From: a virus
Virus record (IMG/VR): IMGVR_UViG_3300042384_000415
Span: 1 to 49,248 of that record
Strand: one strand, 5' to 3'
Length of the DNA: 49,248 nt
This document shows positions 666 through 47,300 of the stretch, piece after piece (positions within the stretch are counted from its first letter, which is position 1; every line of letters starts with the position of its first letter). Position numbers and translations under genes: made by a program. A model generated the notes under the pieces. That model had not been told where the DNA came from. It saw nothing but the letters and a program-made list of their open reading frames with translations, and ran no database searches.

Positions 666-3056
666 ATGCCAATTGACAAAGTAGTTAACCAAGCCCCTGA
701 AACATCCATTGAGATTGAACAAGAGGGCTTGCCTGAGATTGAAATCGTCCTTGAAGACGACGGCGGGGCTACGATTGAGATGGGCGAAGACGAAGCGGGC
801 GACGTAGAATTCCACGCCAACCTGGCAGAAGTCATTGACGAAGACGATTTAAACCGTATGTCAATAGACTTATTGGCATTATTTGAGGCCGACAAGGCGT
901 CTCGTGCTGATTGGGAACAGGTTTATGCCAAGGGCCTTGAGCTGTTAGGCTTGAAAGTCGAAGAACGCACCAAGCCATTCCGTGGCGCAGCCGGTGCAGT
1001 GCATCCAATGTTGACAGAAGCGGTAGTCCAGTTCCAATCGCAAGCGATGAAGGAGCTAATGCCAGCAGACGGACCTGTTAGAACTCAGGTTTTGGGCAAG
1101 GAAACGATAGAAAAACTACAGCAAGCGTCACGTGTTCAAGATTTCATGAACTACGAACTGACCACAGTGATGGAAGAGTACACTCCAGAGATGGACCAAG
1201 CACTTTTCTACCTAGGTTACGGTGGTTCTGTGTTCAAAAAAGTGTATTTTAATGCACAATTAGACAGAATGGTGAGCAAGTTAGTGCTTGCTGACGACTT
1301 ATACATCCCTTACACCGGCTCAAGCGTCATGAGCCAATGCCCACGGATCACGCACCGCGTGCCAATGGACGCAAACGAGTTCAGAAAACGCGTTATAGCG
1401 GGCGAATACTTGGATTTAGACATCCAACCAGAGACTACTGACCCCAATCAAGACCAAATCCAAGAAGGCGTGGACCGTCAAACAGGTTTAAACCCTTCTG
1501 ACCAAGCTGAAGAAGTGTTTTTACTTGAATTCCAAGTGGATTATGACATTCCAGGCTTTGAAGACACCGACGAAGACGGTGAACCGACAGGAATTAAGCT
1601 TCCATACGTCGTAACGCTTGACGAAGTGAGCGGTAAAGTGCTTGGCGTGCGTCGTAACTGGAAAGAAGGCGACGAATTGAAACGTCGTTGCAATTATTTT
1701 GTGCATTATGTGTTGATCGAGGGCCTTGGTGCGTATGGCTTGGGCTTTGTTCACTTAATCGGCAGCCTTTCTAAGACAGCAACCGCTGCATTACGTCAAT
1801 TAATTGATGCAGGTACGTTCTCTAACCTACCAGCAGGGTTCAAGGCCAAAGGCGCACGGATCGCGGACAGTGATACACCAATCCAACCAGGCGAATGGCG
1901 TGACATGGACGCTGGTGGCGCTGAATTGCAGGGTTCTTTATTACCATTACCGTATAAAGAGCCTAGCCAAACACTGTTCCAGTTATTAGGCTTCACTGTA
2001 GACGCGGGTAAACGCCTTGCAAGCATCGCGGACATGCAAGTTGGTGACGGCAATCAGAATGCAGCGGTCGGAACAACGATTGCATTGCTAGAGCGGGGCT
2101 CAATGGTGATGTCTGCCATCCATAAACGCTTACATTACGCACAAAAACTAGAATTCCAATTGCTTGCCAAAGGTTTTGGCGAGTACTTACCCAAAGAGTA
2201 CCCATATGACGTACCGGGTGCCAGCCGTAAGATCAAAAAAGCAGACTTCGACAACATGGTTGCAGTACTTCCTGTTGCCGACCCTAACATATTCTCTACA
2301 GCACAGCGTATAACCCTTGCACAAACACAGCTACAGCTTGCGCAGGCGGCCCCACAGATGCATAACATGTACGAGGCATACTACCGGGTCTACACAGCCC
2401 TGAACGTGCGTGATATCGACGGCATATTGCGTCCACAGAGCTCACAAATGCCTAAGGACCCAGCGACAGAGAATGCTGACGTATTGGATACGATGGAATT
2501 GAAAGCATTTGCTGGTCAACAGCATGATGCACACATTGAAGCGCACTTACGCATGGGCATGTCGCCAATGTTGCAGGCGAATCCTATGTCTGCCTCTATC
2601 CTGCAGAAACATATCCTACAACACATCCGAATCAAAGCGGAAGAGGACGTGGAAGCAGAATTGTTCCAGGCTTACGGTACGGACCCAGACGGAATGGTGT
2701 CAATAATTCAAAAAGAAGGCATGATTGCATTGAAGGTAGCGCAATCCATGGCTGACGTTAAAACATTGCAGGATCAAATCGCTGGTGCAGGTGCGCCTCC
2801 TGTTGACCCAGTAGTTGAACTTAAGAAACAAGAGTTGGATCAACGTGCTAAGGCTGACGCGGCGGATGCAGAGAATAACCAGCAGAAATTGGAACTCCAA
2901 CAGCAGAAACTGAAACAAGAAGCGCAAGATGACCAAGCCAGCATTGCATCTCAGGATGCAATTGCAGAGGAACGTGCTGCTATTGCCCGTGAGCGCTTGG
3001 CCATTATGGAACAACAGATGTTAGGTCAACAGCAAGGAGATAACAATGCCGCTTAA
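666..3056 (+). CDS. Portal protein (P22-like head-tail connector)
   Basis: A protein of 796 residues, slightly longer than P22 gp1 (725). It forms the dodecameric ring at the capsid vertex through which DNA is packaged and ejected. The N-terminal 60 residues are very acidic. The core contains the segment RGAAGAVHPMLTEAVVQFQSQ followed by KELMPADGPVRTQV, DQALFYLGYGGSVFKKVY and a DDLYIPY motif, which is typical of portal proteins from P22-like and marine podoviruses. The last ~100 residues are a Gln/Lys/Glu-rich coiled coil. The ATG at 666 has only a weak Shine-Dalgarno sequence. The 3' end overlaps the next small gene by 11 bases. Confidence 0.9.
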   Translation: MPIDKVVNQAPETSIEIEQEGLPEIEIVLEDDGGATIEMGEDEAGDVEFHANLAEVIDEDDLNRMSIDLLALFEADKASRADWEQVYAKGLELLGLKVEERTKPFRGAAGAVHPMLTEAVVQFQSQAMKELMPADGPVRTQVLGKETIEKLQQASRVQDFMNYELTTVMEEYTPEMDQALFYLGYGGSVFKKVYFNAQLDRMVSKLVLADDLYIPYTGSSVMSQCPRITHRVPMDANEFRKRVIAGEYLDLDIQPETTDPNQDQIQEGVDRQTGLNPSDQAEEVFLLEFQVDYDIPGFEDTDEDGEPTGIKLPYVVTLDEVSGKVLGVRRNWKEGDELKRRCNYFVHYVLIEGLGAYGLGFVHLIGSLSKTATAALRQLIDAGTFSNLPAGFKAKGARIADSDTPIQPGEWRDMDAGGAELQGSLLPLPYKEPSQTLFQLLGFTVDAGKRLASIADMQVGDGNQNAAVGTTIALLERGSMVMSAIHKRLHYAQKLEFQLLAKGFGEYLPKEYPYDVPGASRKIKKADFDNMVAVLPVADPNIFSTAQRITLAQTQLQLAQAAPQMHNMYEAYYRVYTALNVRDIDGILRPQSSQMPKDPATENADVLDTMELKAFAGQQHDAHIEAHLRMGMSPMLQANPMSASILQKHILQHIRIKAEEDVEAELFQAYGTDPDGMVSIIQKEGMIALKVAQSMADVKTLQDQIAGAGAPPVDPVVELKKQELDQRAKADAADAENNQQKLELQQQKLKQEAQDDQASIASQDAIAEERAAIARERLAIMEQQMLGQQQGDNNAA

Positions 3057-3563: not shown

Positions 3564-3577
3564 CCGTGGAGACCCTT

Positions 3578-4048
3578 ATGGCAGAAGAAGAAACAAAGAA
3601 CCTAACAGCGCTAGAAAAGAAGTGGCTAGAGAATGAGCAGAATAAACAGCCGTCTATTGACGATGCTTACAATGCTGACGGTCAGTTCGACCCATCCCTG
3701 ATACCAGAGGAGGCCATAAGCCGTATTCCTCGTCCTACAGGATGGCGTGTAGCAATATTGCCTTATCGTGGCGCAGAACGCACGAAAAGCGGTATTGTGA
3801 TAGCAGAAGAAACTCAGAAACGTACGCAGCTGGCTACCAATTGTGGCTACGTATTAAGCTTGGGTGATTTAGCCTACAAAGACGAATCCAAATTCCCATT
3901 CGGCGCATGGTGCAAAGAAGGCGATTGGATTATTTTTGGCAGGTACGCAGGTTCACGTATTTCTATCGATGGTGGTGAAATCCGTTTTTTAAACGATGAT
4001 GAAATCTTGGGCATTGTAAATTCCCCAGAAGACATCTTGCATATGTAA
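3578..4048 (+). CDS. GroES-like co-chaperonin
   Basis: The reading frame extends up to a GTG at 3566, but ATG at 3578 has GGAG six bases upstream and gives MAEEETKNL, so I choose it (156 residues). After a ~45-residue acidic N-terminal extension comes a Cpn10 fold signature: PRPTGWRVAILPYRGAERT, KSGIVIAEETQ, a GYVLSLGDLAYKD strand, GDWIIFGRYAGSRI and a C-terminal DDEILGIV. In the GroES family the segment after the first strand is the mobile loop that binds GroEL; here it is ERTKSGIVIAEE. Phage versions (T4 gp31, CocO-like proteins) help host GroEL fold the capsid protein. No GroEL is present here, so it must pair with host GroEL. It sits just before scaffold and capsid genes, as expected. Confidence 0.82.
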   Translation: MAEEETKNLTALEKKWLENEQNKQPSIDDAYNADGQFDPSLIPEEAISRIPRPTGWRVAILPYRGAERTKSGIVIAEETQKRTQLATNCGYVLSLGDLAYKDESKFPFGAWCKEGDWIIFGRYAGSRISIDGGEIRFLNDDEILGIVNSPEDILHM

Positions 4049-11564: not shown

Positions 11565-11942
11565 ATGCCTTTAGTAGTCTCGGATAGAGTCAGGGAAGTA
11601 ACAGTGGTGTCGGGCACAGGCCCGGCCACTCCTACTGGCGCCTTCTCTGGATACGTATCGTTTGCTGATGCCATCGGTGACGGCAATACTACTTACTACA
11701 CGATTACAGACAACGTCAACTTTGAATGGGAAGTGGGCGTAGGCACACTAGTAGGCGGTTCTCTTGACCGTCAAATCATTCTTAAAAGCTCCAATAACAA
11801 TCTTATTGTGGACTTTGCCCCAGGTTCTAAGGAAATGTTTTGTACCCTTCCTGCAGAACGGGCTGTAATGAACAATCCCGACGGCTCCCTTATTTATGAC
11901 CCTGCTGGGTCAGCCATTTTATACGCAATTGCATTGGGCTAA
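11565..11942 (+). CDS. Small structural protein, fibre-module type
   Basis: A 125-residue beta-rich protein: MPLVVSDRVREVTVVSGTGP, then GYVSFADAIGDGNTTYYTI, EWEVGVGTLVGGSLDRQIIL and SSNNNLIVDFAPGSKEMFCTLPA. This is a well-known repeat unit in cyanophage and prophage fibre modules ('R-x-x-I-L-x-S-S-N-x-x-x-x-V-x-F-x-x-G-x-K-x-V-F'), often preceding long fibres. Here it stands alone as one domain. Confidence 0.78.
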   Translation: MPLVVSDRVREVTVVSGTGPATPTGAFSGYVSFADAIGDGNTTYYTITDNVNFEWEVGVGTLVGGSLDRQIILKSSNNNLIVDFAPGSKEMFCTLPAERAVMNNPDGSLIYDPAGSAILYAIALG

Positions 11943-11944
11943 TC

Positions 11945-12259
11945 ATGTCGACTTTTAAAAGTAATGCGACCAGGAATTTAGGAGCTACTCCTACCACTTT
12001 ATACACGGCTATAAGTGGTACAGTAGTGATCGGTCTAAACGCCGCAAACGTTTACGCCACCGAATTACCTATTGACGTCTGGCATAAAAGAGGTTCTAAT
12101 AACACCTATATCCTTAAGCAGTTCCGGGTAGGTCCAGGTCAAACTGAAGAGCTCATGAAAGGCAATAAGATAGTGTTAGAAACAGGGGATGAATTAGTTG
12201 CGTCCACTGCCATCAGTAATGGGTTTGATATCCTAGTTTCAGTGCTGGAAGGGGTCTAG
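11945..12259 (+). CDS. Small fibre-module protein
   Basis: A 104-residue protein starting MSTFKSNATRNLGATPTTLY. It has alternating hydrophobic strands (VVIGLNAANVYATELPIDVW, NTYILKQFRVGPGQTEELMK, KIVLETGDELVA). The pattern resembles small conserved virion proteins found beside the 125-residue type in cyanophage fibre clusters. Starts two bases after the upstream stop. Function unknown. Confidence 0.68.
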   Translation: MSTFKSNATRNLGATPTTLYTAISGTVVIGLNAANVYATELPIDVWHKRGSNNTYILKQFRVGPGQTEELMKGNKIVLETGDELVASTAISNGFDILVSVLEGV

Positions 12260-12260
12260 T

Positions 12261-12494
12261 ATGAGTGGCTTTTACGAAGGTACAGATCTAGCAAATAAAA
12301 CCTTTTATGGTTTTAGGTTATTTCAAAATACCGGTGATTTAAACGTAGATGTTATTAGCGGTAATGGCGTAGTTTCACTCCCTGAGCCAGGATATATCAT
12401 TGGACCTAATGAGTATCAGGCATGGGTTTGGTCAACAGGTACCTATCAGTTCCAATGGGGAGCTAAGGGTCATTTAGAGATGGTGTTCATATGA
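12261..12494 (+). CDS. Small hypothetical fibre-module protein
   Basis: A 77-residue protein rich in Gly, Tyr and Phe (MSGFYEGTDLANKTFYGFRL; ending FQWGAKGHLEMVFI). It overlaps the long fibre gene by four bases (ATGA), so the two are probably made together. No family recognised; a small fibre chaperone or attachment protein is possible but unproven. Confidence 0.6.
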   Translation: MSGFYEGTDLANKTFYGFRLFQNTGDLNVDVISGNGVVSLPEPGYIIGPNEYQAWVWSTGTYQFQWGAKGHLEMVFI

Positions 12495-15400
12495 CGACAA
12501 TTGTAGATTTAGGTAAGTTAAGATTTTATTGGGCAGGCAACTATGATGAAGCTACCCAATATGAATTAAACGACGTAGTTCGATACGGCGGTAACGTTTA
12601 TGCGTATATTAACGTAGTACGGACTATCGGTACTATTCCTACGGATGTTACGTACTGGGCCCTCATGGTTGAGGGCATTAACTTTATTGGTGAATGGACT
12701 GACGCAACGCAGTACTTCATTGGCGATGCAGTTGCCTACGGTTCTACCGTATATGTAGCTCTAGTCGATAACATCGATGTTCAACCTGATACTAACCCGT
12801 CTACTTGGTCACAATTCGTTGAAGCTATTCAATGGGAAGGTGATTATGTAGCTACTACAACATACCAACCAAACGACGTAGTTAAATACGGCGGTAGCGC
12901 ATTTATTGCAATTCAAACAACGAACAACAACGACCCAACAAACACTACATACTGGCAACAGTTTGTAACTGGTATTTCACCAGAAGGTGTCTATAACAAT
13001 ACAACAGCCTATGTGCCAAATGATATTGTTGCTTATGGCGCAAATCTATACATAGCTACCGCAAACACGACAGGTAATCTACCTATCAATACCGGTTTCT
13101 GGCAACCGTTCATCTCCGCATTTGAAAATCGCGGTGCATGGGCAACAAGTACCTTATATTATGAAAATGATTTAGTTCAGTACGGTGCATATACCTATGC
13201 ATGTCAGATACAAAACACATCAGGTGTATTCGCAACTGACCTAGCTGCAGGCAAGTGGTCAGTATTTGTAACCGGTCTACGTCAACGCGGTGAATGGGTT
13301 ACAGGTACACAGTATCTACCCTATGATATCGTTACTTATGGCGGCAATACATATTCATGCCTGATATTAAACAACTCAGGTACCTTCGCGACTGACTTAG
13401 CCGCTGGTAAATGGGAAATCTTTAACGGCGGTATTCGTTGGAGAGGCGCATGGACACCTACAACACAGTATTTAGTTAACGATTTAGTGCGAAACGTAGG
13501 CTCAACCTACATTGCAACGGAAGACTTTACTTCAGGATCTAACTTTAGCGTTGAATACGATGCAGGTAAGTGGGTGTTCTTTGCTCAAGGTGGCGCGGAT
13601 ATTCTTCCGGTAATTACACCAGGCTTAGAAGGCTACTCTTTATCAGTAGCTTCTAACGGTATTGATATTGAGTGGATAAATGCCTCTGGTTCAGATAACG
13701 TCTACTATGTATCTGTAGATGGCGACGATGCCAACCCAGGTACAAGCTTGGCCTTACCTTTCGCAACTATTCAAGCTGCCGTTGCGGCCGCTTCAGCAGG
13801 TAATGCCACAATCTTTGTTAAAACGGGTACATACAGTGAAGCATTGCTTCCGATTGTAGTTCCTCCAAACACAGCGATTGTAGGGGATAATCAACGTACA
13901 GTTAACGTTCAACCTGCTGCTGGTTTGGCTGCAGATGGCATAACACCTAATGCTCAGTCAACAATGTGGGCAATGTCAAACGGTTCTATATTGAACAAAA
14001 TGACATTTAAAGGTATGACGGGTTGGGTTCCAGGATCTGTCCCTGCGGATATTACAACCTCTGTAATTAAGGGTGTTGTAGTAGGTTTCAATCCAGCTTC
14101 TCCAGTCACATCTAAATCACCATATGTTCTAGAATGTGCTGCTATATGTACAGGTGCTGTTGGCGCATACGTAGATGGTGACGTACATGCAACAGGCTTT
14201 AAGTCCATGTTGTTCCACGGGTACACCATAATCAGTGATAACGGTATAGGTTACTATGTTAGAGACCAAGGTAAAGCTGAGATTGTTTCTTGCTTTACTT
14301 ACTATTGCTATTTTGGCTATGCCACAACTGGCGGTGGTTTTATCCGCGCATTGAATGGTAATAACAGCTACGGTACATGGGGCGTACAGTCCTCTGGTTA
14401 TGACGTAGATGAAGTTCCCGTAACAGGTACGTTATATGGTATTCAACTTCAAACTACTACAGACCCTATTAATATAGGCTTTGCACCGGGCAGTACGGTA
14501 ACAGGTGAAACGTCAGGTGCGGTTGCTACTGTAACTAACTTACAGGCTTCAGCCGGTAAGGTATACGTTAATTATGGTTCAGGATCTGTTCCTTTTGTTA
14601 ATGGTGAAACTATCAATGATGGAGTAGGCAACACTTTAGTTATAGCAGGCGGAGGCGTAACCGGTCAAAAAGGCATGTTATTAGTTGTAGATAACCTTAC
14701 TGCAGAGCCTTTGCAAGGTGCAAGTATTCAATTAACAGGTGATCCATACTCTTACGTTATTCAGTCTGTATCAGGTACGTATGTGGATACGTCAAGCGTG
14801 ATGTTTATTGCATTGGCCCAAGAAAAACCAGATCCATCTCCGGATAACACAGGCATATCGATCCGCTATCTATATTCACAAATTCGCTTAACAGGGCATG
14901 ACTTTTTGGATATTGGTACTGGTGGTGTTGTCACTACTAACTACCCAAATAATCCACTACAGCCTCCTGCACAAGGCAATGAAGTTGACGAGATATTCCC
15001 AGGCCGTGTTTACTATGTGTCTACTGACCAAAACGGTAATTTCCGTGTAGGTGAGTATTTCACTGTAGACCAAGGTACGGGTACTGCAACCTTAAATGCC
15101 AACGCGTTTAACTTGTCTGGTTTGACATCATTACGTTTAGGATCTATTGGTGCGCAATTAGGTGAGCAGATTAATGAGTTCTCATCTGATGCTACTTTAG
15201 GCGGAGATAATCCAACTAACGTAGCTGTTCCAACTGAGTATGCGGTTAAAACGTATGTTGATACACGTGTACCACAGGCTCTACCTACCTCTGTAGGAAA
15301 CGAAGGGGAGGTACTTACAAGTAATGGTTCGACAGTTTCATGGGCTTTAGCGATTGCTGATCAAACAGATAATTCCGGTAAATACTTAACCACTAACGGT

Positions 15401-15718
15401 ACTACAACCTCATGGAATACAATATCAGTTACACCACAGTGGACTACTAAATCAGCAAACTACACTGCGGTGGCTGGAGATAACTTGTTCTGTAATACAT
15501 CATCAGGTATATTTACAATAACTTTGCCTGCCACACCAGCAGTCAACAGCAGCGTTAGAATTGTAGATTTAGCAGGTACGTTTAACTCCAGGCCCTTAAA
15601 CGTTGCTAGAAATGGGGAATTACTGATGGGTTTAACTCAAGATATGAGTCTAAACGTGGTTAATGCGTCTATTACTTTAGTATACTCTGGCTCTACATAC
15701 GGCTGGCGCTTGGTCTAA
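12491..15718 (+). CDS. Large tail fibre/spike: seven CBM-like repeats plus beta-helix
   Basis: A 1075-residue protein. Residues ~13-372 hold seven repeats of about 50 residues with the consensus G-x-W-x-x-x-T-x-Y-x-x-x-D-x-V-x-Y-G-x-x-Y-x-A, for example EWTDATQYFIGDAVAYGSTVY and AWATSTLYYENDLVQYGAYT. This pattern matches chitinase-type carbohydrate-binding modules (ChtBD3/CBM5-12-like). From ~410 a beta-helix begins with YYVSVDGDDANPGTS and PFATIQAAVAAA, typical of pectin-lyase-fold fibres. Near the C-terminus NVAVPTEYAVKTYVDTRV resembles fibre tip segments. Likely binds, and perhaps shapes or degrades, host surface glycans; no catalytic residues could be assigned. Confidence 0.85.
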   Translation: MTTIVDLGKLRFYWAGNYDEATQYELNDVVRYGGNVYAYINVVRTIGTIPTDVTYWALMVEGINFIGEWTDATQYFIGDAVAYGSTVYVALVDNIDVQPDTNPSTWSQFVEAIQWEGDYVATTTYQPNDVVKYGGSAFIAIQTTNNNDPTNTTYWQQFVTGISPEGVYNNTTAYVPNDIVAYGANLYIATANTTGNLPINTGFWQPFISAFENRGAWATSTLYYENDLVQYGAYTYACQIQNTSGVFATDLAAGKWSVFVTGLRQRGEWVTGTQYLPYDIVTYGGNTYSCLILNNSGTFATDLAAGKWEIFNGGIRWRGAWTPTTQYLVNDLVRNVGSTYIATEDFTSGSNFSVEYDAGKWVFFAQGGADILPVITPGLEGYSLSVASNGIDIEWINASGSDNVYYVSVDGDDANPGTSLALPFATIQAAVAAASAGNATIFVKTGTYSEALLPIVVPPNTAIVGDNQRTVNVQPAAGLAADGITPNAQSTMWAMSNGSILNKMTFKGMTGWVPGSVPADITTSVIKGVVVGFNPASPVTSKSPYVLECAAICTGAVGAYVDGDVHATGFKSMLFHGYTIISDNGIGYYVRDQGKAEIVSCFTYYCYFGYATTGGGFIRALNGNNSYGTWGVQSSGYDVDEVPVTGTLYGIQLQTTTDPINIGFAPGSTVTGETSGAVATVTNLQASAGKVYVNYGSGSVPFVNGETINDGVGNTLVIAGGGVTGQKGMLLVVDNLTAEPLQGASIQLTGDPYSYVIQSVSGTYVDTSSVMFIALAQEKPDPSPDNTGISIRYLYSQIRLTGHDFLDIGTGGVVTTNYPNNPLQPPAQGNEVDEIFPGRVYYVSTDQNGNFRVGEYFTVDQGTGTATLNANAFNLSGLTSLRLGSIGAQLGEQINEFSSDATLGGDNPTNVAVPTEYAVKTYVDTRVPQALPTSVGNEGEVLTSNGSTVSWALAIADQTDNSGKYLTTNGTTTSWNTISVTPQWTTKSANYTAVAGDNLFCNTSSGIFTITLPATPAVNSSVRIVDLAGTFNSRPLNVARNGELLMGLTQDMSLNVVNASITLVYSGSTYGWRLV

Positions 15719-15735
15719 TATAAAGGTAAGTAAAT

Positions 15736-17112
15736 ATGTCAAACTTAGCACAATTCGTAGGGTATAGAGAAATACCGTTAGTACCAACATACAGCGAGCC
15801 AGCGTTTTGTACTTCTGGGTACGGACAACAGGCAGTTATGACGTACAACCAGGCATCGCAAATGATGTCCTTTCCTCAGTGGCCTGGCGGAGAAATGGAA
15901 ACTTCTTCTTATTTCAATCAAAACTGGAATAGCCAACCCTCTTCAAACAATGGTTGGCAATATGCAGGCACTACTTTAACCGGTATGCACGGGCATATGT
16001 TTACAAATGCTACAATTAGTTCAGAAACTTTGACAGCCTCTTCTATGTCTATAACTGGGGTGAATCAACCTAGCGGATCCATATATGGTTGTTTAAATAG
16101 TCAATCAACTGGAATTTGGGTTAATAAAACAAAGCGGGATAATTTATGTATCCAGCGGGCTAATAACGCTTCGGACTACAGTTCATATATAAGCACAACC
16201 CAGATTTCAACTGTTGGATATGGAGCTTTTTTTACGCCAATATCGTCTACCAGAGATTTTAGTGGGTACGGAAATGGCCCTACAAATGGATATAACACCA
16301 CAAGATCTTATGGTTGTGTGGGGTACAACGAAACTACAAAAATGTGGGTTATTGCGGCAAATGCTGCAAACGGGGCGGGGGCAACTATAAATGTTTATAA
16401 AAACATTAACCCACCTACTTTAGCTAATACAAACGACCAGACATTTTGGAATCAATTTAATCACAGCTCTAAAATTACTATCACGTTTACAACGCCAAGT
16501 GTTACAGCAACACATGATTACCAGCATTATAAATTAATTCCTTTGGATAACGGGGATATTGCCCTGGTATGGAAGCAAGAAGGAACTTCTATCCGTTATT
16601 TTATGTTTGTAGGCAATGCTGGAGTTAACTCTACGTCATGGACATTTTCTGGAACGGCCTTACTTACTATAAACACAACCACTTCATATCATGACAGTGA
16701 CTGGGTTAACCACGATTTCATGCCAGCAATGATGTCTCCAGACGGTAAATACGTATTTGTTTGGACTCAATATTATTATTATCAAACTGGTATATGCGGT
16801 ATGGCAATAAGAGTATCTGATGGTGCTGTCAGGTATATTAACTTTGCAGATTCTAGCGATTCTTACGCCCCTGTTTTTTTACGAAAAAATACTTTGTGCC
16901 TTGGGTATAGCGTTAATGCGGACAGTGGACGTGGTCAATCTTTGTATCATTATGATCTTGATAATATGTTTGTACGAGTTGCTACAAACTACGGAAACAT
17001 AACTAACTATAAAGTAGAAGCTAACATTGAGTCGCAATACACATCTACATGCTACCCAATGATTTGGCAACAAACAAACTATCTACCTAACTTTATCCGT
17101 GGCGTTTTTTAA
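15736..17112 (+). CDS. Putative adhesin / receptor-binding protein, paralog 1
   Basis: A 458-residue Asn/Ser/Thr/Tyr/Trp-rich protein of low charge. It shares a full-length framework with the next gene: GIWVNKTKRDNLCIQR, VGYNETTKMWV, a PLDNG strand, GVNSTSWT, DGKYVFVWTQYYYY and a final STCYPMIWQQ before a short tail ending RGVF. The repeated beta-strand-like blocks could form a beta-propeller or similar, but this is inference. Position directly after the long fibre suggests an adhesin or receptor-binding tip. Family not recognised. Confidence 0.7.
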   Translation: MSNLAQFVGYREIPLVPTYSEPAFCTSGYGQQAVMTYNQASQMMSFPQWPGGEMETSSYFNQNWNSQPSSNNGWQYAGTTLTGMHGHMFTNATISSETLTASSMSITGVNQPSGSIYGCLNSQSTGIWVNKTKRDNLCIQRANNASDYSSYISTTQISTVGYGAFFTPISSTRDFSGYGNGPTNGYNTTRSYGCVGYNETTKMWVIAANAANGAGATINVYKNINPPTLANTNDQTFWNQFNHSSKITITFTTPSVTATHDYQHYKLIPLDNGDIALVWKQEGTSIRYFMFVGNAGVNSTSWTFSGTALLTINTTTSYHDSDWVNHDFMPAMMSPDGKYVFVWTQYYYYQTGICGMAIRVSDGAVRYINFADSSDSYAPVFLRKNTLCLGYSVNADSGRGQSLYHYDLDNMFVRVATNYGNITNYKVEANIESQYTSTCYPMIWQQTNYLPNFIRGVF

Positions 17113-17120
17113 GGAAAATT

Positions 17121-18470
17121 ATGTCTAATTTAATTACTTTTGCGGGTGCAAACTATAACCCACCGCTTATCCCTGCCGCCTGCGAAGCAGCTTTTTGTAC
17201 AGCCTCTACATCGTCAAATATATTTATCTGGAACCATAGCAAACAACTTATGGGTAGGGTTTCTGCAGCAAGCGGGGAAATGGCATCCTCAGGAGTATGG
17301 AATAGCAGTTGGGCTAGTACACCCTCTTCAAGCAGTGGTTGGCAATATGCAGGTACTTCTCAAGCAGGCCCACATGGCCACCATTATCTAAACATGAGTG
17401 TTTCTGCTGATACGGCATTTAAAGCTACCTCATACTATACTCAAAACTACCAATATTCCACAAACTATTTAATGGGTGCAATTAATAGCCGCGCCACTGG
17501 AATCTGGGTTAATAAAACTAAACGAGATAATCTATGCTTACAGCGTGTTAATAACCAAAACACTTATCTGTACCGTACTCAAATTTCTTCTTTAGGGTCG
17601 GGAGCTTTATTAGCCCCTTTTACGTCTACGGGGGATATGACTGGTGACACCACTGCAGGAACTGCAAATGGGTACAACACATTACAGACTCAAGGTCTAG
17701 TAGGGTACAACGAAACTACAAAAATGTGGGTGGTAGGTCAACAAGTATCTGGTGCTTCGGTACAGGTATTTGTATATAAAAATATTTCTGCGCCATCTCT
17801 TACATCCGATTCAACATACTGGAGCCAGTTTAACCACAGTGCAAAAATAACAGTTAACTTTAGTCTGCAATCCCCTAGTGACTCTTATGACTATTCTTCG
17901 TGGAAAATTATTCCGTTAGACAACGGTAATATTGTTATCATTTCAAAATCTGCAGGTAGTTTTATAAACTATACACTTTTAACTGGTAACGATGGGGTTA
18001 ATTCGACATCATGGACTGCATCTTCCGTTCAAAATCTTGGTATTACAACTTCATACAACAACACGGCTTGGCAAGATAACTTACCAGCTTTCGTAACGTA
18101 TGACGGGAAATATGTAGTCGTTTATACTCAATATTACTATTATTTCTCCGGCTGGGTGGGCTATATTATTAGAGTGTCAGATGGGAAACGTTTAACCATT
18201 GCACATAATGATACGACATACTCCTATAACTCGGTTATGATAGGAGATAATAAGATGATGATAAGTTACGGAACAAACTCTGATGGTGGATCAGGTCAAT
18301 CTATTTTTGAGTACGATATTGGCTATTTAATGGACAGATACGCTACTGGAACATCTGTTGTATCTTTCTATACCCAGACACAAATTGATAACCCATCTTC
18401 AAGTACTTGTTACCCCATGATCTGGACTATGCCGTCACCCGTACCAACATATAATAGAGGAGTATTTTAA
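17121..18470 (+). CDS. Putative adhesin / receptor-binding protein, paralog 2
   Basis: A 449-residue tandem copy of the gene at 15736, with the same start (MSN-L-x-x-F), the same motif order (GIWVNKTKRDNLCLQR, VGYNETTKMWVVG, GVNSTSWTASS, DGKYVVVYTQYYYY, STCYPMIW) and the same RGVF ending. Two DNA blocks remain nearly identical between copies (around 15940/17325 and 16321/17703) while flanks are diverged. This fits duplication plus selection on variable loops, as in receptor-binding proteins. The stop overlaps the next start. Confidence 0.7.
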   Translation: MSNLITFAGANYNPPLIPAACEAAFCTASTSSNIFIWNHSKQLMGRVSAASGEMASSGVWNSSWASTPSSSSGWQYAGTSQAGPHGHHYLNMSVSADTAFKATSYYTQNYQYSTNYLMGAINSRATGIWVNKTKRDNLCLQRVNNQNTYLYRTQISSLGSGALLAPFTSTGDMTGDTTAGTANGYNTLQTQGLVGYNETTKMWVVGQQVSGASVQVFVYKNISAPSLTSDSTYWSQFNHSAKITVNFSLQSPSDSYDYSSWKIIPLDNGNIVIISKSAGSFINYTLLTGNDGVNSTSWTASSVQNLGITTSYNNTAWQDNLPAFVTYDGKYVVVYTQYYYYFSGWVGYIIRVSDGKRLTIAHNDTTYSYNSVMIGDNKMMISYGTNSDGGSGQSIFEYDIGYLMDRYATGTSVVSFYTQTQIDNPSSSTCYPMIWTMPSPVPTYNRGVF

Positions 18471-18700
18471 TGGCTACAAAACTTAACTTTACATTTAACG
18501 GTTTAGCAGAAATTGTTGAAGACGGTGAATACAGCGTAAAAATTACGTCTAAAATTCCACATAGATTTTCTTTAGTGGATGGAAAAGTTGTTGACAAATA
18601 TGATGGAATTTCAGACGCAGATGTAGTTAAAGCGGATTACGCTGCTGCAGTTGCTTTGGCTACAGAACAAAACGTAGAACCTCCACCACAGCCTTTCTAA
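18470..18700 (+). CDS. Small protein coupled to the adhesin genes
   Basis: The protein has 76 residues: MATKLNFTFNGLAEIVEDGE at the start, then YSVKITSKIPHRFSLVDGKV, an acidic/Ala helix (DADVVKADYAAAVALATEQN) and a Pro-rich end. GAGGAG lies upstream and the ATG overlaps the previous stop; its own stop overlaps the heme oxygenase start. It could be a fibre chaperone or small structural protein, based on position only. Confidence 0.6.
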   Translation: MATKLNFTFNGLAEIVEDGEYSVKITSKIPHRFSLVDGKVVDKYDGISDADVVKADYAAAVALATEQNVEPPPQPF

Positions 18701-19233
18701 TGGCACTAAGAGACTTAATTAAAGCAAACCACGACAAAGCGGAATCCCACCGCTTTGTTCGTATTCTATTGTCTGGCGACATAACAAAAGAAGTTTATGT
18801 TGAGTTGCTGTTCAATCAATTGCTTTGCTACTCAAAATTAGAGTCATTAGCTAAGCACTTTGGATTGCTAGAAGGCTTTGAGGAAATTTGTCGTGCTGAA
18901 CATATCGAAACGGATCTCATAGAACTAGGTGGTACCTCAAAAGTTTACCCATCGACTATGGCTTATTTAGAGTATTTAAACTCAGTAGGCCCTAAGATAT
19001 TGCTAGCACACATATACATTCGTCACTTCGGTGACTTATACGGCGGTCAAATAATTAAGAAAGCTGTGCCAGGTAGTGGTAAAATGTACGAGTTTGAAGA
19101 CCGCAATGGATTGATTGCTAAAGTACGTGAACGTCTATCAGATGAATTAGGCGAAGAAGCTAATAGAGCTATCGAATTTAACTTGCAACTTTTTGAAGAG
19201 ATTGCAAATGAGCACAATATTCCAACAACTTGA
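18700..19233 (+). CDS. ho1: Heme oxygenase (biliverdin-forming, HO-1 type)
   Basis: A 177-residue helical protein that would oxidatively open heme to biliverdin IX-alpha, Fe2+ and CO, using reduced ferredoxin or a similar donor. The proximal heme ligand is His11 in NHDKAESHRF (HO-1: H-x-x-A-E). The distal helix is LLAHIYIRHFGDLYGGQIIKK, matching the family signature G-D-L-x-G-G-Q with the catalytic Asp and the Gly residues that kink over heme. The C-terminal FNLQLFEEI also fits. It is slightly shorter than bacterial HOs (~200-240) but core-complete. The start overlaps the previous stop; the end overlaps the bilin reductase by 26 bases. Known as an auxiliary metabolic gene in cyanophages. Confidence 0.93.
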   Translation: MALRDLIKANHDKAESHRFVRILLSGDITKEVYVELLFNQLLCYSKLESLAKHFGLLEGFEEICRAEHIETDLIELGGTSKVYPSTMAYLEYLNSVGPKILLAHIYIRHFGDLYGGQIIKKAVPGSGKMYEFEDRNGLIAKVRERLSDELGEEANRAIEFNLQLFEEIANEHNIPTT

Positions 19234-19912
19234 TGGCCTTGCAGATAAACTAAAAGCAGTCCTATCACAGTATGATGCAGTAGACGAAGGCCACAACTTT
19301 GAGTGGCCTAATTACGTTTATAAGAGCGCAAAATTCCGCAGGGCACATTTAGACATCATTGATGTAAGGGAGTCTAAAAAGCTCTACATGATGCACCTAT
19401 GTGTATTTCCTCACATCAACGATCCATCTCCAATATACGGCTTTGACATTGTAGCTGGCCCTAACAAGGTGACAGGTGCGTTCCACGACTTTAGCCCCGT
19501 ATCAGAAGGTCATCCTATGGGTGAATGGTTCAAGAAGCGTGTAGCATTATACAAGTGGAAACGCGAACGCGAACTGCCAGAGTGGGCCAGAAAGATATTT
19601 AGTCCAAGCATTATTACAGCTACGAACATCCAAACACAAGACGAACTAGAGCGCATGTGTGATTTAGTGTTTGCCAACTTGATTTACTATTTGAATAACA
19701 TTGGCGAAACAACGGCTAACGATTATACTAGTGCCCATAACTGGTACTGTTTCAATCAAAAACAAAACCCACACACTCCTCGTGTTATGGAAGCATTAGG
19801 GCTAGATGTAGAGAACGTTAAGATGTTTATTAAAGACTGCTTATTCCCTGAACTAAAAGGTGCTAAGTCCATTTGGACCGAGGTAATGGCCGCTTACGGA
19901 GCGGGTAAATAG
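19208..19912 (+). CDS. pcyX: Ferredoxin-dependent bilin reductase, PcyX/PebS-like
   Basis: The frame extends to a TTG at 19193, but ATG 19208 has GAAGAG seven bases before it; this gives 234 residues. The core MMHLCVFPHINDPSPIYGFD and IVAGPNKVTGAFHDFSPVSE is the bilin reductase signature. His63 and Asp80 are 17 residues apart, as are His88 and Asp105 of PcyA. Ungapped counting puts Ile51 at the PcyA Glu76 position, so that Glu seems absent, as in PcyX. The C-terminal part NWYCFNQKQNPHTPRVMEALG is also typical. The enzyme would reduce biliverdin from the overlapping heme oxygenase, probably to phycoerythrobilin, using reduced ferredoxin. Subfamily (PcyX versus PebS/PcyA) is my inference; family membership is clear. 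Confidence 0.9.
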   Translation: MSTIFQQLDGLADKLKAVLSQYDAVDEGHNFEWPNYVYKSAKFRRAHLDIIDVRESKKLYMMHLCVFPHINDPSPIYGFDIVAGPNKVTGAFHDFSPVSEGHPMGEWFKKRVALYKWKRERELPEWARKIFSPSIITATNIQTQDELERMCDLVFANLIYYLNNIGETTANDYTSAHNWYCFNQKQNPHTPRVMEALGLDVENVKMFIKDCLFPELKGAKSIWTEVMAAYGAGK

Positions 19913-20862
19913 TGTTTGGATTCGCGTCCTTTGCTCAGTTACCTTTTGCCTCATTACCGGCAACGGGTATTCCTGCCCAAGCGGCTTTAACTGGGCAACA
20001 GCTAAATGCGTTTGTTTCTTCTCTTGCTATCAGAGGCGAAGGATTCACTAATTTAACGGGTCAACAGCTAAATGCCTACACAGGCAATATGCGTGCCAAG
20101 TTTGGCTACTTCTTGACCAGTCAGGTCTTATCTGGGACCGTTTCAAATCTATCGGTTAAGGGTAAGGCCTCAACCGTCCTTTTAAATCAAGTCCTACAGA
20201 GCTATTTAGAAGACCTTGACACTGTGGCTGGCGCCTACGCCGTCGTACTGGCTCAAGTTCTTAATATTTCGGTAGAAGATGTTGCAACAATCGCAAAAGC
20301 AACTACTACGGTCTCTGGACAAGAATTAAATTCATTTATAAATGATGTTGCTGCTTCTGCTCAGGCTACTGGAACTATTTCAGGTATTGCGGCTGAGTTT
20401 ACGCAGGAAGATTTAAAAATTGTCATCGGTTATTTATTGACTGGCATTACAATGTCGTCTGCGGTACAATCTCTAAACGTCTCTGGTAAAGCCACTACAC
20501 AAGTTACAGGCTCTGTACTTACCAGCACGCTCAATAGTGTATTTGGTAAGGCCAATGCAAGAGGCTTCACCACATCTCAACTATTAAATATTTACGAAGG
20601 TAATATTAGTGCGTCAGGTAAAGCATCTGTTCGCTTAGACAGCCTAGAAGCTGTTATTATCATCGATAACGTATTAGTATGGGGCGTAGTGCCCGATGAC
20701 CAAAACCCAGATTGGGAAGTGGTCGATGACAGTCAAACCGAGGTTTGGGCTTCTGTAAATTCTGAGCAAACGACTACATGGATTGTTCCTGTAGTAGATC
20801 CTACTGATTGGGTTATAGTAGACGATTCAGAGGATGAGGACTGGACAGAAGTAATACATTAA
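19912..20862 (+). CDS. Repeat-containing virion protein with acidic Trp-rich tail
   Basis: GTG start at 19912 overlapping the bilin reductase stop by one base; 316 residues. Residues ~25-245 consist of about nine to ten 21-22-residue repeats with a core such as LTGQQLNAFVSSLAIRGEG, LTGQQLNAYTGNM, LTSQVLSGTVSNLSVKGKA and VSGQELNSFINDV. The C-terminal 60 residues are acidic with regularly spaced Trp (DWEVVDDSQTEVW, DWVIVDDSEDEDWTEV). Both features are typical of cyanophage and pelagiphage structural proteins of unknown detail. Likely a fibre or baseplate-associated protein. Confidence 0.75.
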   Translation: MFGFASFAQLPFASLPATGIPAQAALTGQQLNAFVSSLAIRGEGFTNLTGQQLNAYTGNMRAKFGYFLTSQVLSGTVSNLSVKGKASTVLLNQVLQSYLEDLDTVAGAYAVVLAQVLNISVEDVATIAKATTTVSGQELNSFINDVAASAQATGTISGIAAEFTQEDLKIVIGYLLTGITMSSAVQSLNVSGKATTQVTGSVLTSTLNSVFGKANARGFTTSQLLNIYEGNISASGKASVRLDSLEAVIIIDNVLVWGVVPDDQNPDWEVVDDSQTEVWASVNSEQTTTWIVPVVDPTDWVIVDDSEDEDWTEVIH

Positions 20863-43938: not shown

Positions 43939-45438
43939 ATGTCAATAAGAAAGGTATTCGGGCCTCCTGGTTCCGGTAAAACAACCTTTCTGTTGAATAT
44001 GGTTCAACAGGAATTAGACAGCGGCGTTCATCCTTCGCAGATGGGCTACTTTGCGTTTACTCGCAAGGCGGCTACTGAAGCAAAGGATAGGGCGGTAGAG
44101 AAGTTCCCGCAGCTAAATCCTGAGATAGATTTTCCTTGGTTCAGAACACTTCACAGTCTGGCTTACCGCTGCCTAGGTATCGGCAACAAGGACATGATGA
44201 AGCCTGAGAACTACAGGGAGTTCGCTAAAGAGGCAGGCATTGAGCTTGGCATAGAGAACGGCGAGGAAGACTTCATGGTGCGGGTAGACAATCCCATACT
44301 TAATGAAATCAACATCGCACGTATTCGAGGTGAGGACTTACGCACCCACTACAACCGTAGTGAGATGAAAATCGAGTGGTATCACTTTGAATACGTAGAG
44401 CGTGCTTACCGTCAATACAAAGAGGCCAATGCCCTGCTAGACTTTACCGACCTACTAGAACGCATAGTAGAAGAAGCACATCGCCTCCCTAGTTTAGAGG
44501 TGCTCATTGTGGACGAGGCGCAAGACTTGTCTCGGCTGCAGTGGCGTCTGGTCTCGGAGCTCGCCTCACGGGCCAAGCGTTCGTTCCTTGCTGGTGACGA
44601 TGACCAAGCCGTGTATAACTGGGCCGGAGCAGACGTGAACAGCTTTCTAGGCTTTAACGGTGATATCACCGTCCTTGCTCAATCCTATCGCGTTCCAGCC
44701 AAGGTGCATGCCTTGGCTAACATCGTGGTCAATCGTATTCGTACGAGACAGCCTAAGGAATGGAACCCTCGTGAGTTTGACGGTGACGTGAAGTATTACA
44801 ACGACTTTGAGCACGTAGACATATCCCAAGGCGAATGGCTCATCCTTGCGTCTACTAATTACTTATTAAATGACATGCACAATTGGATTAAGTCGCAAGG
44901 CTTATTGTTCGAGCGCCAAGGACATCGGAGCATTAATGAAGCCGTAATGACTGCGGTGATGGGGTGGGAAACACTTCGTCGGGGTAAAGAAGTCCCTTTC
45001 CCTGTTGTCAAACAGATCTATAAGCACCTCGATTCCAATTATATCAAACGCGGACACAAAATGCTAAAGGACCTTGATCCAGAAGGCATGTTTACCATGG
45101 ACTACCTCATCAAGAACCACGGCCTTGATACCAATTTAATTTGGCATGAGGCATTAACAAAGATAGGCGAAGAGAAGCGCGACTACATCGTGGCGCTTTT
45201 ACGACGCGGCACGAAGCTTATGGGCAAGGTCAACATCAAACTGTCCACGATCCACGGAGCAAAAGGCGGTGAGGCGGACAATGTCTTACTGCTCACGGAC
45301 CTTTCCTCTAAATTTGCAAACGAGTACGAGAAAAACGCTGACGATGTAAATCGCTTACTGTACGTGGGAATCACACGTGCCCGTCAAGCCCTGCATATTG
45401 TCTTACCTAAAAACGAACGTAAAGGCTTTAGACTGTGA
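43939..45438 (+). CDS. SF1 DNA helicase, UvrD/Rep-like
   Basis: A 499-residue ATP-dependent helicase. Walker A: GPPGSGKTTFLL (Lys14); TRKAATEAKDRA (motif Ia); VDEAQDLSRLQWRL (191-204, motif II); AGDDDQAVYNWAGA (218-231, motif III); Arg251 in QSYRVPAKVH (motif IV); STIHGAKGGEADNVLLLTD (motif V) and RLLYVGITRARQAL (motif VI). Compact compared with UvrD (720), missing much of the accessory subdomains. No DnaB-type helicase seen in the window, so it may act at the fork. Overlaps polA as GTGA. Confidence 0.9.
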   Translation: MSIRKVFGPPGSGKTTFLLNMVQQELDSGVHPSQMGYFAFTRKAATEAKDRAVEKFPQLNPEIDFPWFRTLHSLAYRCLGIGNKDMMKPENYREFAKEAGIELGIENGEEDFMVRVDNPILNEINIARIRGEDLRTHYNRSEMKIEWYHFEYVERAYRQYKEANALLDFTDLLERIVEEAHRLPSLEVLIVDEAQDLSRLQWRLVSELASRAKRSFLAGDDDQAVYNWAGADVNSFLGFNGDITVLAQSYRVPAKVHALANIVVNRIRTRQPKEWNPREFDGDVKYYNDFEHVDISQGEWLILASTNYLLNDMHNWIKSQGLLFERQGHRSINEAVMTAVMGWETLRRGKEVPFPVVKQIYKHLDSNYIKRGHKMLKDLDPEGMFTMDYLIKNHGLDTNLIWHEALTKIGEEKRDYIVALLRRGTKLMGKVNIKLSTIHGAKGGEADNVLLLTDLSSKFANEYEKNADDVNRLLYVGITRARQALHIVLPKNERKGFRL

Positions 45439-47300
45439 AACCTAGATCATTATTCCCTACTTCTTCTGAGTGGCTACCACCAAACAGCTTTCCTGACCTG
45501 TCCCAGGCGACTGAAATCGCAATCGACTTGGAGACATGCGACCCTAACATGGAGAAGTTCGGTCCAGGCTGGCCTCGTAAAGACGGCTACATCGTCGGTT
45601 ACGCGTTTGCAGTGGACGGATGGAAGGGCTACTTCCCCGTGGCTCACCACGGCGGCGGCAATCTAGATAAGGGCATCGTAGAGCGCTGGGTCAAGAAGAC
45701 CTTAGCACTGCCTTGCGACAAGATTATGCACAACGCGGCATACGATACTGGCTGGCTTAAAGCACAAGGCTTCGAGGTCAATGGCCGTATTATCGATACC
45801 ATGCTCGCAGCTGCGCTTGTGGACGAGAACCGTTTCTCATTCTCCTTGAACAGCCTAGGCTTTGACATGCTTAAAGAGATTAAATCAGAGCAAGGTCTTA
45901 AGGATGCGGCCGCTGACTTCGGTGTGCACCCTAAGAAAGAACTATGGAAGCTTCCTGCCATGTACGTGGGCGATTACGCTGAGCAGGACGCGGCACTGAC
46001 ATTGAAGCTTTGGCACCATCTACAGACGCTACTACGCAAGGAAGAAGTGGAATCCATCTTTGGCCTTGAGACAGAGATGCTGCCTATCCTTATCGACCTG
46101 ACATTCAAAGGCATTCGCTTTGACAGAGAGAAGGCAGAGAAGCTTATTAAGGACATGAAGCGCCAAGAACAGCAGTTCCTTATGAACATTAAGAAAGAAG
46201 TGGGCACTCACGTCGATATATGGGCAGCAGCTAGTGTTGCTACAGCCTTTGATAAGCTTAATATCAAGTACCCAAGGACCGAGGCCGGCGCACCAAGCTT
46301 CACTAAGTCCTTCCTCGACGGCAATCCACACCCTATCGCTAAGATGATTGTAGAAGCACGCGAGCTAAACAAGACCCACGGAACGTTTTTACAGCCTTAC
46401 CTGGACTTCTCCGCCGCCGATGGACGCATACATCCACACGTCAATCAACTACGCTCTGACGATGGCGGCACGGTCACTGGCAGGCTTTCTATGTCTCAGC
46501 CTAACCTACAGCAGGTCCCGGCTCGACACGAGGTCATAGGCCCCTTAGTGCGCTCCCTATTCCTACCTGAAGAGGGCGAGCTGTGGGCGGCGAACGACTT
46601 CTCCTCCCAAGAGCCCCGTTTGCTAGTGCATTACGCTACTTTGATTGGTTTAGACGGCGCAGAGAAGATGGCCGAAGCCTATCGAGAGGATCCAAATACG
46701 GATTTCCATCAGATGGTAGCAGACATGGCAGGCATTGAGCGTAAACAAGCCAAGACCATCGGCTTAGGCTTGATGTATGGCATGGGTAAGAACAAATTAG
46801 CAGGGCAGTTGGACCTTCCTGTTGACGAAGCGAGTGAATTGATGGCTACTTTCCACAACAAAGTGCCTTTCCTACGTGGCACAGTCGATGCTGTCATGCG
46901 CAGAATTGAAAAACCCGCGTCCAACGGCGCTATTCGAACCTTATTAGGGCGTAAATGCCGCTTTCCTCTGTGGGAACCCATCGCGTGGGGTGTCAATAAA
47001 GCCCTTCCTTACGAACAAGCCGTCTCGGAATACGGACCACGGATCAAGCGAGCTGGTACATACAAGGGTTTGAACCGTTTAATCCAAGGTTCTGCCGCTG
47101 ACCAGACCAAGGCTGCCATGATTGCGCTACATAAAGCAGGCTTCCGTCTACTTTTACAGGTGCACGATGAGGTTGCCGTGTCCGTTAAGAACCGTGACGA
47201 GGCATTACAGGCCGCAGAAATCATGCGAAACGCTGTGGAACTCGAAGTTCCCAGCAAAGTGGACGTAGAAATCGGTAATTCTTGGGGCGAAGCACGATAA
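45435..47300 (+). CDS. polA: DNA polymerase I (family A) with 3'-5' exonuclease
   Basis: GTG start, 621 residues, overlapping the helicase gene by four bases. Exonuclease: Asp31-x-Glu33 (AIDLETCDP), Asp104 (HNAAYDTGW), Tyr181-x3-Asp185 (YAEQDAALT), so proofreading should be active. Polymerase: motif A Asp388 (NDFSSQEPR), motif B Arg436/Lys440/Tyr448 (RKQAKTIGLGLMYGMG), motif C His577-Asp578-Glu579 (VHDEVAVS). The residue at E. coli Phe762 is Leu444 here, a change known in viral PolA to alter fidelity and processivity. No 5'-3' nuclease domain. Replicates the phage genome. Confidence 0.95.
   Translation: MKPRSLFPTSSEWLPPNSFPDLSQATEIAIDLETCDPNMEKFGPGWPRKDGYIVGYAFAVDGWKGYFPVAHHGGGNLDKGIVERWVKKTLALPCDKIMHNAAYDTGWLKAQGFEVNGRIIDTMLAAALVDENRFSFSLNSLGFDMLKEIKSEQGLKDAAADFGVHPKKELWKLPAMYVGDYAEQDAALTLKLWHHLQTLLRKEEVESIFGLETEMLPILIDLTFKGIRFDREKAEKLIKDMKRQEQQFLMNIKKEVGTHVDIWAAASVATAFDKLNIKYPRTEAGAPSFTKSFLDGNPHPIAKMIVEARELNKTHGTFLQPYLDFSAADGRIHPHVNQLRSDDGGTVTGRLSMSQPNLQQVPARHEVIGPLVRSLFLPEEGELWAANDFSSQEPRLLVHYATLIGLDGAEKMAEAYREDPNTDFHQMVADMAGIERKQAKTIGLGLMYGMGKNKLAGQLDLPVDEASELMATFHNKVPFLRGTVDAVMRRIEKPASNGAIRTLLGRKCRFPLWEPIAWGVNKALPYEQAVSEYGPRIKRAGTYKGLNRLIQGSAADQTKAAMIALHKAGFRLLLQVHDEVAVSVKNRDEALQAAEIMRNAVELEVPSKVDVEIGNSWGEAR

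Follow-up and report, generated by a model that had tools for sequence, protein, structure and literature searches.

The virus record IMGVR_UViG_3300042384_000415 of IMG/VR is a linear stretch of 49,248 nt with 45% GC, the whole of which we refer to as the window. A first-pass annotation made from the letters alone had proposed a heme oxygenase (HO) gene and a bilin reductase gene at 18700-19912, overlapping by 26 bases and lying in the tail-fibre region of a phage with no visible photosynthesis gene. Both ORFs are present on the plus strand, as are all the genes of this region described below, and their products score far above the curated cut-offs of the corresponding Pfam families. The HO gene (18700-19233, ATG start) encodes 177 residues and the reductase gene (19208-19912) 234 residues from the ATG at 19208, the start with which the 26-base overlap is obtained; an in-frame TTG at 19193 offers an alternative start that would add five residues. 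The neighboring junctions are equally tight: the HO start codon overlaps the stop codon of the preceding gene (TAATG), and the gene 3' of the reductase starts within the reductase stop codon (TAGTG).

The proposed placement was likewise borne out, the pair being part of an operon of tail genes. Directly 5' of HO lies a small gene of 76 codons (18470-18700), whose homologues directly precede HO at two other loci (L063 and L098). Upstream of it are a tail fibre of 1075 residues with CBM5/12-like repeats (12491-15718; phrog_9851, E 2.7e-217) and two tail-region proteins that are tandem paralogues of each other (15736-17112 and 17121-18470). On the 3' side, tail-region proteins continue from 19912 onward, and the first of these (19912-20862) is found in the same place in most relatives of the HTVC023P type and at the empty site of the lake phage DSL-LC04. 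No photosynthesis gene was recognized among the window ORFs scanned. Each of the two paralogues carries a single HGH at residue 85, in the contexts GMHGHM and GPHGHH, and HxH motifs bind iron in the trimers of T4 gp37. We keep the idea of tail-borne iron (the Ferrojan idea) as no more than a side note for these proteins, homologues of which were found only in the window and its near-identical contig.

By sequence and predicted fold the product of 18700-19233 is a heme oxygenase, for which heme cleavage is predicted. It matches the Heme_oxygenase profile (PF01126) with E 3.1e-18 and 66.8 bits against a cut-off of 23, recovers HO-1 and HO-2 structures from the PDB at E about 1e-12 and aligns with human HO-2 as well as with cyanobacterial and human HO-1. 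The proximal histidine and the GDLxGGQ distal helix that the first reading had pointed out correspond to a proximal-type His11 and to the run G111-D112-L-Y-G115-G116-Q117, whose GDLYGGQ matches the GDLSGGQ of HO-1 and HO-2. G111, D112, G115 and G116, the counterparts of human HO-1 G139, D140, G143 and G144, are together with His11 invariant or almost so in the phage homologues; D112, G115, G116 and Q117 are invariant in 22 of these. An AF2 model built from a 22-row alignment reached a pLDDT of 94.6, and Foldseek placed HO-1 structures with the HO-1 fold on top (TM 0.85 to 1WE1). Heme cleavage has been demonstrated for one phage HO, the vHemO of CB_2 (PMC11480375).

The same lines of evidence indicate that the second product is a ferredoxin-dependent bilin reductase (FDBR) of the PcyX family rather than PebS or PcyA, its activity being predicted. 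It matches Fe_bilin_red (PF05996) above the curated cut-off (E 2.6e-19), and the closest solved structure is the PcyX 5OWG (E 1.2e-59), PcyA 2D1E being reached only with E 1.7e-15. His63 and Asp80 lie 17 residues apart, as do H88 and D105 of PcyA and as had been noted at the outset, and both are invariant in all 115 PcyX sequences. The AF2 model (22-row alignment) has a pLDDT of 89.2 and recovers PcyA and PcyX structures in Foldseek. In a quick maximum-likelihood tree of 132 sequences, for which SH-aLRT was the only support measure, long branches were flagged and alphaproteobacterial PcyA was left out, the window falls among 114 PcyX rows that include 5OWG (support 81). It groups there with 5OWG and the SAR11 phage Mosig, apart from PebS and from the PcyA of cyanobacteria and cyanophages, while one divergent phage row (L169) lies outside the PcyX group. 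A phylogeny of both proteins had been suggested as a check, and no grouping of the reductase outside the FDBRs was seen. The AX clade is unplaced in the tree, since a scan for PcyA motifs brought up cyanobacteria, one Nonlabens contig and a few contigs whose titles are doubtful, but no PcyA from alphaproteobacteria. The Nonlabens contig (Nonlabens xiamenensis, L235:6001-6393) encodes an FDBR resembling PcyA, which the tree places with the PcyA of cyanophages.

The enzyme assignments of the first-pass annotation thus hold at the level of sequence, tree and predicted fold, with one refinement: its designation "PcyX/PebS-like" stands for PcyX, given the 5OWG match, the tree and Asp49, and falls for PebS, which lies far outside the PcyX/PcyA branch, has Asn in the His63 column and gives a lower score. 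The nearest other family is PcyA. In the column of PcyA Glu76 the window has Asp (D49), as do 111 of 115 PcyX, against Glu in 16 of 16 PcyA; the PcyX of L165 (a 372-kb contig), L169, L153 and L173 carry N, C or E there. To our knowledge no single residue is established as fixing FDBR regiospecificity, which leaves some room for a PcyA making PCB in place of a PcyX making phycoerythrobilin (PEB), all the more as the reductase of the phage relative CB_2 is a true PcyA (PMC11480375). Given the gap between the two structure matches, the tree position with PcyX and the Asp in the Glu76 column, we regard this as improbable, and PEB is, judging from the family, the most likely product. The roles of the Asp-His pair and of the Glu76 position in FDBRs have been described (PMC11480375, PMC10151467).

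PcyX relatives are encoded in at least 583 IMG/VR stretches. HO lies 5' of PcyX on the same strand in each of 117 unique cassettes, and the ORFs, called mechanically for this count, overlap in 109; conversely, of the 76 HO-query loci that extend 300 bases or more downstream, 75 have PcyX. At the one exception (L148:6001-6546) HO has room downstream, no PcyX follows and an antisense gene comes immediately after HO. The fixed order, the overlap and the near-constant pairing suggest that the two steps are used as a unit. In 7 unique cassettes a gene stands between HO and PcyX, and in five of them it encodes a 2OG-Fe(II) oxygenase, from two Pfam families. In a pair of related phages the intervening position holds a 286-residue protein with no Pfam match (L015:9141-10001 and L018:8835-9695). 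PcyX-motif scans of 84,980 bacterial and archaeal species genomes, which have limited sensitivity, and of plasmids found no PcyX, and hence point to no cellular source or host.

The roles of PcyX residues are reportedly also treated in a 2018 FEBS J paper. HO with PcyX has already been published as a phage cassette, the carriers being T4-like (Mosig-type) phages, and is widespread in uncultured phages; the first reading had mentioned uncultured marine phages with PcyX next to a heme oxygenase. For both Mosig EXVC030M (MT647606) and the PcyX EBK42635 (PDB 5OWG), HO and PcyX have an order and overlap like those of the window, and in Mosig they lie near tail and neck genes, much as the window's pair sits among tail genes. 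Mosig is, however, a T4-like myovirus of SAR11 with about 33% GC at the cassette, as against a podovirus type with 45% GC; its PcyX and HO are 46.6% and 38.4% identical to those of the window, and its cassette is accompanied by 2OG oxygenases and a ferrochelatase, none of which was recognized in the window. The three-gene hemO-pcyA/X-valaS cassette, found in phages of the sea and of fresh water, CB_2 among them, resembles the window in combining hemO with an FDBR in aquatic phages that probably infect heterotrophs. A possible difference is its AlaS gene, which was recognized neither among the annotated ORFs of the window nor, by profile, in 47 of the 50 long records of relatives; its contigs were placed with myoviruses by gp13 (PMC11480375). 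Cyanophage ho1, pebS and pcyA encode members of the same enzyme superfamilies with an identity of only 25-32%, and the cyanophage HO that we inspected has psbA and psbD as neighbors and no adjacent FDBR.

One new point is the carrier, a podovirus of the HTVC023P/DSL-LC04 type, along with five more such records that have the pair; the others are how often PcyX occurs and is paired with HO, the clustering of 2OG-Fe(II) oxygenases at the cassette and the slot shared with one fibre family. By sequence the backbone of the window is of this type, in its lake form: the portal (666-3056, plus strand; phrog_1216), the stabilisation protein and DNA polymerase A (45435-47300, plus strand; PF00476, E 1.4e-59) are homologous and collinear with those of the metagenome-assembled lake phage DSL-LC04 (OR003939) and of the HTVC023P-type pelagiphages. 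All three are nearest to DSL-LC04 (61-79%) and then to HTVC023P/027P (40-53%), the portal reaching 75.8% and 47-49% and the polymerase 78.7% and, for HTVC023P, 53%. As DSL-LC04 measures 61.5 kb, the window with its 49 kb is probably an incomplete genome. The hosts are probably non-photosynthetic bacteria. The pair is a point of difference, DSL-LC04, HTVC023P and HTVC027P having no HO or PcyX match; HTVC023P-type phages are described with partner genes for a 2OG-Fe(II) oxygenase and a ferrochelatase, and the main text of that paper contains no bilin gene that we found (PMC9599517). Among 50 PcyX- or HO-bearing records, 5 have a portal of the HTVC023P type (40-72% identity) and 8 have T4 gp23, including a 267-kb and the 372-kb contig and Mosig, the sets of 50 used for the two markers being only partly the same. 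The cassette therefore occurs in at least two unrelated phage backbones, and the window shows that it has passed to a podovirus type with no relation to the T4-like one. The relatives range from 40 to 55% GC, and GC content gave no host assignment; the backbone relative L038 was sampled from Lake Tanganyika. The window also encodes a phage GroES co-chaperonin (3566-4048), as do DSL-LC04 and the podovirus relatives. Three deposited records of 65,014 bases each (OQ594354, OL906435 and PP438419) bear different host names and gave identical match scores, and are possibly one phage deposited several times.

Taken together, HO and PcyX very probably form a working two-enzyme cassette for heme degradation that is expressed with the tail genes. 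HO would open heme to biliverdin, Fe(II) and CO with electrons from the host, and PcyX, read from the overlapping frame, would take over the biliverdin and carry out a four-electron reduction with ferredoxin of the host, the most likely product being PEB, a pink bilin. In vitro activity has been shown for HO and FDBRs of related phages (PMC11480375). A phage ferredoxin as the electron donor was considered and dropped, Mosig alone having a Fer2 ferredoxin (1 of 50 related records).

What the cassette is for is a separate matter. The first-pass annotation had asked what the bilin is used for, naming a bacteriophytochrome chromophore, iron release from heme and a redox sink, and the question is a real one: the earlier study, too, calls it enigmatic why phages whose hosts do not photosynthesize have bilin genes (PMC11480375). 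Tentatively, we prefer a role in freeing iron from heme during infection, to supply iron-dependent processes such as those of phage 2OG-Fe(II) oxygenases, combined with the disposal of biliverdin. In mammals, product inhibition of HO is relieved by biliverdin reductase, which reduces the biliverdin; by analogy, PcyX might play this role, removing biliverdin from HO and getting rid of it. The neighbors of the cassette support the iron reading. In 49 whole records (3.53 Mb), picked mostly for length and hence non-random, 22 of the 49 genes for PF13640/PF13759 2OG-Fe(II) oxygenases, spread over 16 records, are no more than 1 kb away from the cassette, while random placement of the cassette gave a mean of 3.0 and a maximum of 15 (20,000 trials, relatedness being partly handled in this statistic). 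Mapped on the PcyX tree, adjacency to a 2OG gene requires 21 changes, and the oxygenases between HO and PcyX in five cassettes, the ferrochelatase at the Mosig cassette and the lack of a recognized bilin acceptor in the window point the same way. Against this, the window itself has no PF13640 match and no 2OG gene detectable by a local homologue search, and about three quarters of the unique cassettes have none within 1 kb. Moreover, in the tail region of DSL-LC04 a 2OG gene stands without HO and PcyX, so that a shared hot spot is an alternative and the enrichment could stem from a common slot for insertions close to the fibre gene and not from a common function.

AlaS and Fer2 ferredoxin genes are rarer than the 2OG genes. 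No AlaS-like gene was recognized among the annotated ORFs of the window, a record that is probably incomplete; AlaS was seen in none of 28 related records and in 3 of 50 by profile search of the long ones, and the ferredoxin in the one record mentioned above. Genes lying within 6 kb of HO-PcyX also encode the adaptor ClpS in 18 loci (e.g. L100:7044-7346), Hsp20 (17), a probable DnaK (16) and a NodU-type carbamoyltransferase (28).

The main rival to iron release is that the bilin itself is wanted, as HO alone would free the iron and yet PcyX accompanies nearly every HO with a strictly conserved active site. PEB or another phytobilin would then serve as the chromophore of a bilin-binding protein of host or phage, such as a bacteriophytochrome or a BBAG-type globin, and alter light signaling. 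There are precedents: the PcyA of phage CB_2 makes PCB that assembles phytochrome, the hemO-pcyA-alaS genes of Bradyrhizobium ORS278 adjoin a phytochrome gene (PMC11480375), and heterotrophs have bilin-binding globins (PMC10151467). We consider such a chromophore supply unlikely though worth keeping in view: no phytochrome, globin, bilin lyase or other bilin-binding protein was recognized in the window ORFs scanned, none was found among the ten neighbor genes of relatives run against Pfam, and the products of HO-adjacent phage FDBRs vary (PEB for PcyX, PCB for the CB_2 PcyA; PMC11480375), which fits one fixed need poorly. Rather unlikely, too, is a role in which heme is destroyed for its own sake, or in which CO, an antioxidant bilin or a drain on ferredoxin reshapes respiration or eases oxidative stress. 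Every variant of this follows from the enzyme chemistry, and genes for chaperones and stress proteins (ClpS, Hsp20, DnaK) lie nearby in some relatives, but nothing in the data singles it out; further, a redox drain would not need HO, nor heme removal PcyX.

The position of the pair is itself recurrent. The window and DSL-LC04 are collinear to the left and right of a block (11565-19912) that DSL-LC04 lacks and that comprises two small genes, the fibre, the two paralogues, the small gene, HO and PcyX. The order fibre-HO-PcyX is found within the available sequence in 4 of the 5 podovirus relatives, L033 having no fibre match upstream, and the fibre family of the window precedes HO-PcyX in many unrelated phages: it lies within 5 kb upstream in 42 of the 84 unique cassettes for which 5 kb or more is available on that side. 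When a blind search was run with the fibre protein and the best 80 loci were kept, HO or PcyX was found downstream at 30 of the 35 loci with at least 5 kb of sequence on that side. The 267-kb T4-like contig (L075, the same contig as L250) has a fibre 70% identical to that of the window over the best segment, whereas its PcyX belongs to another clade. These differing histories suggest either that fibres were exchanged among phages in which the pair was already present or that fibre and pair came together several times in one slot. The missing block, the 30 loci and the presence in T4-like and podovirus backbones alike could also be read as mere cargo of a swapped module, riding a fibre-adjacent hot spot with no selected function, a reading made very improbable by catalytic residues that are invariant across divergent HO and PcyX (44-75% identity of PcyX to the window) and by the near-obligate, overlapping pairing. 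Both genes look maintained by selection, judging from their sequences.

Returning to iron release, we put forward as a possibility, rather less than an even bet, that HO-PcyX in phages of heterotrophs is generally an iron-release device with built-in biliverdin disposal, and not a pigment pathway, serving 2OG oxygenases that phages repeatedly brought into its operon, beside a shared fibre module. If true, this would explain why reductases of both the PcyX and the PcyA type stand beside HO and why photosynthesis genes are missing. HO-PcyX keeps company with a tail-fibre family and with oxygenases that depend on iron(II), not with photosynthesis or photoreceptor genes; this company, the podovirus backbone and the wide spread of the pairing had not been foreseen in the first reading. 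The survey makes the question of purpose testable, as Mosig with HTCC1062 is a cultured phage-host pair with the same arrangement.

Outside the phages of heterotrophs, we observed one further neighbor of this kind: in the Synechococcus phage Sf-CH3 (L187:1-849) a cyanophage PcyA gene is directly preceded and overlapped by a gene for a 2OG-Fe(II) oxygenase.
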